A stretch of DNA of 34,640 bases, taken from Salsipaludibacter albus (GTDB taxonomy: Bacteria > Actinomycetota > Nitriliruptoria > Nitriliruptorales > Nitriliruptoraceae). The stretch is from contig NZ_JAHOPH010000037.1 in NCBI RefSeq assembly GCF_019798055.1, forward strand, positions 1 to 34,640, in the 5' to 3' direction. The translations under genes and the position numbers were made by a program. The notes beneath the pieces were generated by a model. The model had not been told where the DNA came from. It searched no databases and saw nothing but the letters and a program-made list of their open reading frames with translations. Of this stretch, positions 4,486 to 34,601 are shown one piece after another. Positions within the stretch are counted from its first letter, which is position 1; every line of letters begins with the position of its first letter.

Positions 4486-5055
4486 GTGGCCGACGCCGAC
4501 CAGGACCGCATCATCGGTCGTGTGGTCAAGCCCCACGGGATCCGGGGCGAGGTCGTCGTCGACGCCCTGTCGGACGTGCCGGGTCGCTTCGACGCCGGCG
4601 TCGTCGTGTCCGTGGGCGACACCTCCCGCACCATCGCGAGCAGCCGACCCCACGCGGGCCGGCTGCTCGTGTCGTTCGAGGGGATCGACGACCGCACCGC
4701 GGCCGAGGTCCTGCGTGGCCTGTCCGTCGCCGCCACCGCCCGTGCCCTGGACGACCAGGCCGTCTACTACGTCCACGAGCTGGTCGGCCTCGACGTCGCG
4801 ACACCCGACGGTGACTGGCTCGGCGAGGTCGTGGGTGTCCGCGAGCTGCCGTCCGTGGCCGGCTACGACCTGTTGGAGGTCGACCGGGACGGCCAGCGCT
4901 GGTTGCTGCCCTCCGACGACGACCTGGTCGAGGTCGCGACCAACAGCGACACCGGCGAGGACCTGCTGCTGGTGTTCGACGCCCCGCCCGGGCTGCTCCC
5001 CGACGACGTCGCCGCGGCTGTCGACGTCGCCCCGCCGGACGAGGCCGCCACGTGA
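4486..5055 (+). CDS. rimM: Ribosome maturation factor RimM
   Basis: RimM (189 aa with this start) binds S19 and helps mature the head of the 30S subunit. The N-terminal barrel carries [16 protein letters not shown] and the C-terminal PRC barrel carries [22 protein letters not shown] and [11 protein letters not shown], both typical. Two GTG starts are possible, 4477 and 4486. I prefer 4486 because GAGGTGA (4474-4480), an almost ideal anti-SD match, would sit 5 nt upstream of it, whereas it overlaps the 4477 codon. The gene ends in an acidic Ala/Asp-rich tail and overlaps trmD by 4 bp (GTGA). Confidence 0.93.
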
Positions 5056-5843
5056 GGATCGACGTCCTCACGATCTTCCCCGAGTACGTCGCGGGGCCGG
5101 CCGACGTGTCCCTGCTCGGACGGAGCCGCGAGACCGGGGTGCTCGACCTGCGGCTGTTCGACCTGCGGGATGCCGCCTTCGACCGCCATCGCAGTGTCGA
5201 CGACGCCCCCTACGGCGGGGGAGCGGGCATGGTGATGCGCCCCGACGTGGTCACCCGCGCCGTCGAGGCGGTCTGGAACGACGTGGACCCGGCGGAGGTG
5301 GACGACGCCGGCCTCACCCACCGGGCCGGTGGGCCACGTCCCCGGACCATCCTGTTCACCCCACGGGGGCGGGTCCTCGACCAGGCCCTGGTCCGCGAGC
5401 TGTCCGCCGAGGATCGGCTCGTGCTGCTGTGCGGTCGCTACGAGGGCATCGACGAGCGGGTGCACGACCACGTCGCGACCGACGAGGTCTCGATCGGCGA
5501 CGTCGTGACGTTCGGGGGAGAGGTCGCGGCCCTGGTGCTGATCGAGGCGGTCGTGCGCCTGCTCCCCGACGCGATGGGCAACGCCGCGTCGCCCGCCGAG
5601 GAGTCGTTCAGCGACGGGCTGCTCGAGCACCCCCAGTACACCCGTCCCGCCCATTGGCGTGGTCACGACGTGCCCGAGATCCTGCGGTCCGGCGACCACG
5701 CCAGGATCGCCGCGTGGCAGCGCGAGCAGCGGCTCGCACTGACCCGGCGGCGTCGCCCGGACCTGCTCGCACCCACCGACGACCCGGCCCCGGGTGCGGA
5801 CGGCCAGGCGTCGGGCCCCGGTGAACTCGCGCACGGCGCCTGA
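5052..5843 (+). CDS. trmD: tRNA (guanine-N1-)-methyltransferase TrmD
   Basis: TrmD (263 aa) makes m1G37 in tRNAs with G36 and so prevents +1 frameshifting. It uses SAM bound in a trefoil knot. Visible are [27 protein letters not shown], the knot segment [29 protein letters not shown] (cited in part), and [15 protein letters not shown] with the catalytic Asp. The knot reads [16 protein letters not shown] where many relatives read YVLTGGELPALVLIDA, a mild variation. The start is GTG 5052, overlapping the rimM stop. The last 35 residues are Pro/Asp/Gly-rich and likely disordered. Confidence 0.97.
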
Positions 5844-9830: not shown

Positions 9831-10151
9831 ATGGACCCAGACGAGATCGAGAACTACGAGATCCAGGCCGAGCTGTCGCTGTACCGCGAGTACCGCGACA
9901 TCGTCCGGACCTTCTCCTACGTCGTCGAGACCGAGCGGCGCTTCTACCTGACCAACGAGGTCGAGGTCGTCCCGCACACCGACGACGGCGACACCTGGTT
10001 CGAGCTCCACCTCACCGATGCGTGGGTGTGGGACATGTACCGGCCGGCACGGTTCATCAAGCAGGTCCGCGTCCTGACCTTCCGCGACGTCAACGTCGAG
10101 GAACTCTCCCACGACGACACCGAGTTCCCCGCGATCTTCGGGGACTCCTGA
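9831..10151 (+). CDS. DUF2469 family protein
   Basis: This 106-residue protein matches the small, highly conserved actinobacterial family DUF2469 (Rv2901c type). It is rich in acidic and aromatic residues (NYEIQAELSLYREYRDIVRTF, cited in part; ETERRFYLTNEVEV; DAWVWDMYRPARFIKQVRVLTFRDVNVEEL). There is no signal peptide or membrane segment. In mycobacteria the gene stands next to rnhB and lepB as it does here, except that this window places a convergent amidohydrolase between them. The function is unknown in the family. The start at ATG 9831 is supported by a -10 box 6 nt upstream. Confidence 0.9.
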   Translation: MDPDEIENYEIQAELSLYREYRDIVRTFSYVVETERRFYLTNEVEVVPHTDDGDTWFELHLTDAWVWDMYRPARFIKQVRVLTFRDVNVEELSHDDTEFPAIFGDS

Positions 10152-10183: not shown

Positions 10184-10229
10184 ATCGTGTGCCGGGGGCG
10201 TGCGTGGAGGCACGGGAGGAGCACACGAC
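10184..10229. repeat. 46-bp nested palindromic element, copy A
   Basis: Outer arms are ATCGTGTGC (10184-10192) and GCACACGAC (10221-10229), 8 of 9 paired. Inner arms are GCGTGC (10198-10203) and GCACGG (10210-10215), 5 of 6 paired. The 5-nt spacers and 6-nt loop are exactly those of the copies near 33-34.6 kb. The element lies in the gap between the DUF2469 gene and the small membrane gene, just upstream of the candidate -10 box at 10257. Confidence 0.8.
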
Positions 10230-33111: not shown

Positions 33112-33157
33112 ATCGTGTGCTGCTCCCGTGCCCAGACGCACGGTGACGGCACACGAT
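33112..33157. repeat. 46-bp nested palindromic element, copy B
   Basis: This is the most perfect copy. Outer arms ATCGTGTGC (33112-33120) and GCACACGAT (33149-33157) pair fully; inner arms CCGTGC (33126-33131) and GCACGG (33138-33143) pair fully; both spacers are 5 nt and the loop is 6 nt. It begins 33 bp after the ABC-F stop and might serve as its terminator. Confidence 0.85.
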
Positions 33158-33194
33158 GAGTGCGCTCGCCGCCGCGGGAAGGTGGCGGCCGCGG

Positions 33195-33240
33195 ATCGTG
33201 TGCTGGTCTCGTGCCCGGAGGCACGACGCCGGCACGGGAG
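33195..33240. repeat. 46-bp nested palindromic element, copy C
   Basis: The left outer arm ATCGTGTGC (33195-33203) is intact. Inner arms TCGTGC (33209-33214) and GCACGA (33221-33226) pair fully and differ from copy B by a compensatory pair of changes. The right outer arm is partly lost (GCACGGGAG). Spacers and loop keep the family lengths. Confidence 0.8.
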
Positions 33241-33274
33241 GTGCTCCAGTCGACGTGCTCAGTCCTCGGACGCG

Positions 33275-34249
33275 TCACCCGTCCCCGATGTTGGCCACGG
33301 GTGACGTCCTCGTCGGGAGCGGGGTGCCGCGAGCGGACTCGAGTTCCCGACGCACCTCGTCCACGACCAGTCGGGGACCCTCGCGCAGGTCGGTGCTCGT
33401 GAAGTGGAGGAACTCACGCCACCCAGCTGCGACGATGGCGCGCTCGCGCCGCTCGTCGTCGTTGCGGTCCAGCCGACCGTGGTGCCAGCGGCGCGAGTCG
33501 AGCTCGATCGGCACCCGCTCCGGCAGGTAGACCGCGTCGACCACGCGGCGCCGGCCGGCACCGTCCACGACGGGGTGGTTCATGGCGGTCGGGGGCAGGC
33601 CTGCAGCCGAGACCAGGTGGAGGAATTCGGTCTCCAGTGGCGAACGACAGGCGGCGTCCAGCGGCGAGAGCTCGTCGGCCATGTCCAACACCACTCGCCG
33701 TCCTGCCACCGGCCCCAGTCGTCGAGCGGTCGCCCGCAGGGCGGTCGCGTCGGTGAGCTGCCGCCGGACACCCTCGGACAGGATGCGACGCAGGAGGGAT
33801 GGGTCGAGGTCGGCGGCGACATCGAGGACGGTACGCGTGACCGTGGTCAGGGTGAACGGGCCGATCCGGGTGACGTCGCTGTCGTCGAAGCTCTTGGAGC
33901 GGTGCACGACCAGCCCCGGTGACGTCGGGAAGGAGCGCACGTGGGACAGGAGGTGGAGGGCTCGGTCCCCGATCCCGGTGGGGAGGTCCAGGTCGTGGAT
34001 CCGCGCCGCGGTGGTGCGGGCGAGGACAGCGTCGCCACCGACGCTGAGCTGGGCCGCCATCGCCCGCGCCTCCCACGTCTCGGGCACGGCACGATCCATG
34101 AACACGCCCGGGAACAGCCGGGCGTAGCGTCCCCGACCGACCCGTCGAACGATCGTGCTGTCGGCGATGCCGCATGTCCGGGCCTGGGCATGGCTGAAGA
34201 CACCGAACTGTCGTCGGCAGATGCTGGCGAGGCCGTGGTCGTGGGACAC
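33275..34249 (-). CDS. DUF559-type endonuclease-like protein with AbiEi-like N-terminus
   Basis: This 324-residue protein resembles the large actinobacterial group in which an AbiEi-antitoxin-like N-terminal winged helix (FGVFSHAQARTCGIADSTIVRRVGRGRYARLFPGVF, cited in part) precedes a C-terminal DUF559/VSR-like PD-(D/E)XK domain. The C-terminal part has RRRVVDAVYLPERVPIELDSRRWH, with candidate metal ligands Asp and Glu-Leu-Asp, then DDERRERAIVAAGW. Members of this group are often present in many copies per genome; the role is unknown. I chose GTG 34249; the reading frame continues upstream but through palindromic repeats. It is convergent with the ABC-F gene and is surrounded by five 46-bp elements. 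Confidence 0.8.
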   Translation of the reverse strand: MSHDHGLASICRRQFGVFSHAQARTCGIADSTIVRRVGRGRYARLFPGVFMDRAVPETWEARAMAAQLSVGGDAVLARTTAARIHDLDLPTGIGDRALHLLSHVRSFPTSPGLVVHRSKSFDDSDVTRIGPFTLTTVTRTVLDVAADLDPSLLRRILSEGVRRQLTDATALRATARRLGPVAGRRVVLDMADELSPLDAACRSPLETEFLHLVSAAGLPPTAMNHPVVDGAGRRRVVDAVYLPERVPIELDSRRWHHGRLDRNDDERRERAIVAAGWREFLHFTSTDLREGPRLVVDEVRRELESARGTPLPTRTSPVANIGDG

Positions 34250-34403
34250 GCTGTCAGGGTTGCTCCGGCTGGCCGGCGGGGGAACGTCCACCGGGCGGCC
34301 TGTGGACGACAGGGGGCTGTCCCGGCTGCGGGGCCGTCTGGGTACGCGGGACTGGATCCCGTCGGCGGCCACGGATCCGTGGTGCCTGTCCCGGCCGCCG
34401 GTC

Positions 34404-34449
34404 ACCGTGTGCGGCTGTCGAGCCGCGAGGCACGGGTCGGGCACGCGCG
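34404..34449. repeat. 46-bp nested palindromic element, copy D
   Basis: The left outer arm ACCGTGTGC (8 of 9) is at 34404-34412. Inner arms TCGAGC and GCACGG (34418-34423, 34430-34435) pair at 4 of 6. The right outer arm GCACGCGCG is degraded. Lengths of spacers and loop are conserved, which is what identifies it. Confidence 0.65.
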
Positions 34450-34476
34450 TCGAAGGGTCGCCGTGTTCGGGCCGGC

Positions 34477-34522
34477 GCGGAGTGCCGGCCCCGTGCTCCG
34501 GGGCACGGGTTCGGCACACGAT
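34477..34522. repeat. 46-bp nested palindromic element, copy E
   Basis: Inner arms CCGTGC (34491-34496) and GCACGG (34503-34508) pair fully and the right outer arm GCACACGAT (34514-34522) is intact. The left outer arm keeps GTGC at its inner end (GCGGAGTGC). The degraded arm is on the opposite side from copies C and D, suggesting opposite orientation. Confidence 0.75.
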
Positions 34523-34555
34523 CCGGTGGGCGTGCCCCGTCGGTGTCGGACTGCC

Positions 34556-34601
34556 CAGGCGTGCCCTTCTCGTGCCGGGAGGCACGAGATCCGCACACCG
34601 T
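34556..34601. repeat. 46-bp nested palindromic element, copy F
   Basis: Inner arms TCGTGC (34570-34575) and GCACGA (34582-34587) pair fully, the same variant as copy C. The right outer arm GCACACCGT is 7 of 9; the left, CAGGCGTGC, keeps the inner GTGC. It lies 39 bp from the window edge, so the array may continue. Confidence 0.7.

Follow-up and report, generated by a model that had tools for sequence, protein, structure and literature searches.

Short nested palindromes cluster around a single gene at one end of a contig of Salsipaludibacter albus, and we asked what these elements are and what ties them to that gene. The stretch of DNA analyzed here, called the window throughout, is 34,640 nucleotides long. 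A preliminary description had listed six palindromes of 46 bp, and all six were found where it placed them: a solo copy at 10184..10229, 32 bp past the stop codon (10149-10151) of a DUF2469 gene; two copies at 33112..33157 and 33195..33240, the first of which sits between convergent gene ends with the second 83 bp from it; and three copies at 34404..34449 (degenerate), 34477..34522 and 34556..34601, the contig ending 39 bp beyond the last. That description missed the bracketing of a putative nuclease gene by five of the six, two on the 3' side of the gene and three on its 5' side. The fixed layout it gave (outer arm 9, spacer 5, inner arm 6, loop 6, then 6-5-9 in mirror order) proved constant and gapless across 22 aligned copies, and the GTGC cores within a palindrome are 11, 10 and 11 bp apart, each about one helical turn. 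Its shared outer arms hold for the GTGC, but beyond that core they are degenerate in the copies at 34404, 34477 and 34556. At the orthologous DUF2469 gene end of the congener G001, a palindrome of an inner CCCGG type (L208 ~1712-1759) is found versus the window genome's copy at 10184-10229, and an additional gene, by eye aldo/keto reductase-like, is present at this G001 site.

The bracketed gene (33275..34249, minus strand; the GTG start at 34249 was picked by homology) encodes a 324-residue protein composed of an AbiEi-like region and a Vsr/DUF559 (EDxHD) nuclease domain. The AbiEi-like region (residues 7-184; 33698..34231, minus strand) contains winged-helix DNA-binding and antitoxin-like domains (PADLOC AbiEi, E = 2.5e-25; Pfam AbiEi_4), and AbiEi models match the N-terminal region in all 39 family members. 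The nuclease domain (residues 203-303; 33341..33643, minus strand) carries conserved E206, D238, E249, H256 and D265; profile matches to I-Bth0305I (PDB 3r3p, 4e-6) and to 3hrl (2e-9) were obtained, and conservation of E206, D238, H256 and D265 together with the similarity to 3r3p identifies the domain as EDxHD/Vsr-like. The model of the window protein folded alone was unusable (pLDDT 39), and a plasmid search returned no match to this protein and two partial matches to a homolog. The 3' neighbor is an ABC protein gene, and the other side runs to the contig end. A paralog that is 50% identical (G000:C2:133277-134179) is bracketed by one and two palindromes with another inner arm, referred to below as subfamily B, and three remoter paralogs (L019, L020 and L021) are each flanked on either side by palindromes particular to them.

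Further copies, which the preliminary description had called for seeking genome-wide, are present. The core GTGC-N5-YCGTGC-N6-GCACGR-N5-GCAC has 12 exact sites in the window genome (4.25 Mb, 79 contigs) versus none in the reversed control; with up to 3 mismatches there are 25 sites versus 7 in the control, and about 21 copies are convincing when mismatches are allowed. One copy of the core was found in G001 and none in 59 other relatives. Exact matches to the pattern GTGTGC-N28-GCACAC number 52 in the window genome and 12 in G001, with none in either control; in the 59 other relatives the pattern occurs at chance level (0-1 sites). The palindrome families of the window genome are limited to the genus. 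The set of six is real but too small, since the copies fall into three subfamilies that have the outer arm GTGTGC, the geometry and the spacer preferences in common and differ in the inner arm, mainly YCGTGC in A (to which the six window copies belong), CTCCA type in B and CGGCC type in C; the outer arm of B and C is GTCGAGTGTGC. Subfamily C is the most numerous in the window genome, and no nuclease gene bracketed by it was found in the assembly. At one gene end the window genome has a pair of C palindromes (L080 4979-5090) versus a B-like palindrome in G001 (L214 ~1377-1424), and short tandem repeats with GGAGCGGCGCTGGAGTTG adjoin the C palindrome at L107 ~4943-5070 (G000:C3) and are absent at the orthologous G001 site. 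Core matches in Streptomyces, Kitasatospora and others (L039-L045, L047 and L048) were judged unrelated, being without flanking arms and, in most, having complementary spacers; those at L039, L042, L044, L045, L047 and L048 (Streptomyces, Kitasatospora) have a near-identical, fully paired palindrome, GTGCGAGGGCCGTGC plus its complement. Scored with gene calls from a codon-usage script, without annotation, all 39 A, B and C copies examined are extragenic, and the center of 28 lies within 80 bp of a stop codon versus a background of 25%.

The two halves of the palindrome are conserved independently of each other. Pooled half-sites from the 22 aligned copies approximate ATSGTGTGC-YSNTS-YCGTGC, and the spacers, which had been thought to vary freely, prefer N-S-N-T-S/C in both halves when read from the outside inward. 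Mirror spacer positions are uncoupled and pair more rarely than in shuffled halves (P = 0.02 for subfamily C and 0.13 for subfamily A, values that are indicative only because the copies have common ancestry). The compensatory inner-arm change reported earlier is weak at the first inner pair, with 8 C-G, 3 T-A, 3 T-G, 1 G-C and 7 unpaired among the 22 copies, and the argument built on it for a folded strand lacks support, given halves conserved independently and spacer pairing that is not kept. Two independently read half-sites therefore fit these data better than a conserved stem.

The pairing of gene and palindrome extends across Actinobacteria. A search of 150 genomes, which took in the window genome and relatives as distant as the phylum allows, gave 73 homologous loci. 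Flanks were counted as matching when the similarity between the 5' and the 3' palindrome exceeded that of 99% of 5256 cross-locus pairs. Such flanks are found at 39 of the 73 genes versus 0.7 expected, and are lacking at the other 34. When genes of the window genome were scored identically (n = 273), five reached 35/48, three of which are members of the AbiEi-nuclease family. The sequence of the bracketing palindrome differs from locus to locus, while the arrangement recurs: the downstream palindrome abuts the gene stop, the upstream one lies ~45-200 bp before the start, and extra bracketing copies are in tandem with a spacing of 60-84 bp. A query of concatenated flanking palindromes found matches in 22 of 23 genomes, which among the matches listed are mainly of the genome's or genus's own palindrome type. 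Many of the 23 genomes have copies away from the gene, and in some, among the matches listed, only the bracketing copies appear. The single-contig genome G080 has eight solo copies over 2.46 Mb, with outer and inner arms conserved and spacers unpaired. In these solo copies (L186-L193) the two halves differ in spacer type, and the gene-bracketing copies (L194) have the same spacer in both. In a Mantel test, protein similarity correlated weakly with outer-arm similarity (rho 0.12, p 0.017) and not with inner-arm similarity.

Presence of the elements also varies between congeners in the targeted stretches that were compared. The 1,080-bp palindrome-gene-palindrome unit of G080 is missing from both G152 and G150, where its flanks are joined. 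Solo copy L190 of G080 is missing in G150 and L192 in G152, and each of L193, L187, L188 and L191 is found in at least one of these two genomes. A single outer-arm 8-mer lies at the junction in three of the four empty alleles of G150 and G152, with no others in the ~27 kb examined; as a sign of homing-like gain of the gene at a cut, empty target this is suggestive only, as it fits a pre-existing target and loss of the element alike. In G001 the element is missing at four inspected sites of window-genome copies, though some of these sites may hold decayed copies. Neither insertion boundaries nor target duplications were definable from the alleles compared (G080/G150/G152 and window genome/G001).

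We consider it probable, with fair though not high confidence, that each palindrome serves its own nuclease as a target with two half-sites, and that the two together act as a module like REP/RAYT but built on a non-homologous enzyme. The palindrome would be a double-stranded target of two inverted half-sites of ~20 bp, each consisting of the outer arm GTGTGC-NSNTC followed by the family-specific inner arm, each monomer of the protein, whose gene lies between the palindrome clusters, binding one half-site. Binding as two monomers is likely by analogy with AbiEi, whose site comprises two inverted repeats of 23 bp separated by 3 bp (PMC7319586), and with the related I-Bth0305I, whose target, bound as a dimer, spans nearly 60 bp (PMC3943268). 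Together, the gene and the palindromes on either side of it would constitute one unit, in which the nuclease is predicted to nick or cut at its own palindrome. This activity would help palindrome copies to reach further extragenic positions, for the most part directly past stop codons, in a manner comparable to the presumed spread of REPs by RAYT transposases. We infer this nuclease-driven spread and mobilization from the bracketing, the scatter and the presence/absence differences, by analogy with RAYTs. Against this reading, some restraint would be needed on a nuclease whose own genome contains dozens of its sites, subfamily C brackets no gene in the assembly, and the 34 homologs without matching flanks also count. 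The two earlier suggestions, a REP-like element or a protein-binding site, each capture part of the picture, in that the copies are extragenic, mostly post-stop and genus-limited, and are tied to a predicted two-half-site DNA binder with a nuclease domain.

A transcription regulator could account for some of these features, with the palindromes serving as operators for autoregulation upstream of the gene and for a regulon elsewhere. AbiEi antitoxins autoregulate via inverted repeats (PMC7319586), the palindromes upstream of the gene at many loci (often ~90 bp before its start) occupy what is putatively the position of an AbiE-type inverted-repeat operator, and independently conserved half-sites are expected for a DNA-binding dimer. 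We nevertheless regard this explanation as unlikely, because the palindromes are also found on the 3' side of the gene, the solo copies follow stop codons and avoid divergent promoters (2 of 39 copies in divergent gaps versus 31% background), the genes adjoining solo copies are functionally unrelated, palindrome presence differs between congeners, and the nuclease residues are conserved.

It is more doubtful still that the palindromes are RNA or single-stranded DNA hairpins (terminators or mRNA 3' elements) kept by their hosts, with the link to the nuclease secondary. Spacer pairing that is not kept, weak covariation and the lack of any Rfam match for the palindromes all argue against such hairpins, which would also leave unexplained why each nuclease gene is flanked by a palindrome particular to it, despite the location of copies directly past stop codons and a solo copy of G080 that is identical in a congener where the flanks are 84-89% identical. 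A defense or addiction system, in which the nuclease hits foreign DNA while the palindromes serve to mark or regulate self, is very improbable: AbiEi relatives do occur in abortive-infection systems and there are weak matches to anti-phage nuclease models, but no AbiEii toxin or methylase was found in the ten flanking reading frames tested, and the scattered post-stop copies would be unexplained. Least probable of all is a MITE or REP of the usual kind, mobilized by a known transposase whose gene lies elsewhere in the genome, the size, extragenic position and genus-limited distribution notwithstanding: a search of the genome for the Y1 (REP/IS200) transposase gene found none, and each type of palindrome surrounds an AbiEi-nuclease gene of its own.

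The wider proposition, that widespread and undescribed actinobacterial modules spread palindromes by means of AbiEi-EDxHD nucleases, arose independently of REP/RAYT and diverged with each nuclease and its own two-half-site palindrome changing together, appears to us evenly balanced. No description of an association between palindromes and AbiEi-nucleases was found in the open-licence papers searched. If true, this proposition would supply a second, non-homologous answer to the origin and persistence of extragenic palindromes in bacteria, a role for common actinobacterial genes whose present annotation goes no further than a DUF559 or AbiEi domain, and natural pairs of enzyme and target, by the dozen, for tests of DNA recognition.

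Among known systems, EDxHD homing endonucleases and Vsr offer one comparison: the nuclease domain is related by profile to I-Bth0305I (3r3p), but here there is no intron or intein host, and target-like palindromes accompany the gene and scatter in the genome. The AbiE type IV toxin-antitoxin systems, whose AbiEi antitoxins include Rv2827c, share the AbiEi N-terminal region, and the AbiEi inverted-repeat site is close to the window palindromes in size and layout (PMC7319586). Here, in contrast, a C-terminal nuclease is fused, and sites are also found at the 3' end and scattered in the genome; with no AbiEii toxin in ten flanking reading frames at seven loci, the locus is not a complete AbiE system. 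The CGTC-tagged REPs of five other phyla, which have 8-9 bp stems, 4-5 nt loops and no known enzyme (PMC3733652), are likewise short dispersed palindromes, and subfamilies B and C start with CGTC. A close parallel is with the REP/RAYT (TnpA-REP) "REPtrons", in which palindromes of lineage-specific families bracket an enzyme gene and occur as scattered extragenic copies (PMC3733652, PMC8266576). The Y1 transposase family PF01797 is absent from the window genome (the same search found it in 5 of 14 control genomes) and no GTAG end is present in the aligned palindrome copies, so the locus is not a member of REP/RAYT. RAYTs are HUH/Y1 enzymes acting with REPs that carry a GTAG tag at one end, whereas here an AbiEi region is joined to an EDxHD nuclease and two inverted half-sites make up an element of 46-50 bp; in both, lineage-specific palindromes flank one enzyme gene and turn up at scattered positions in the same genome.
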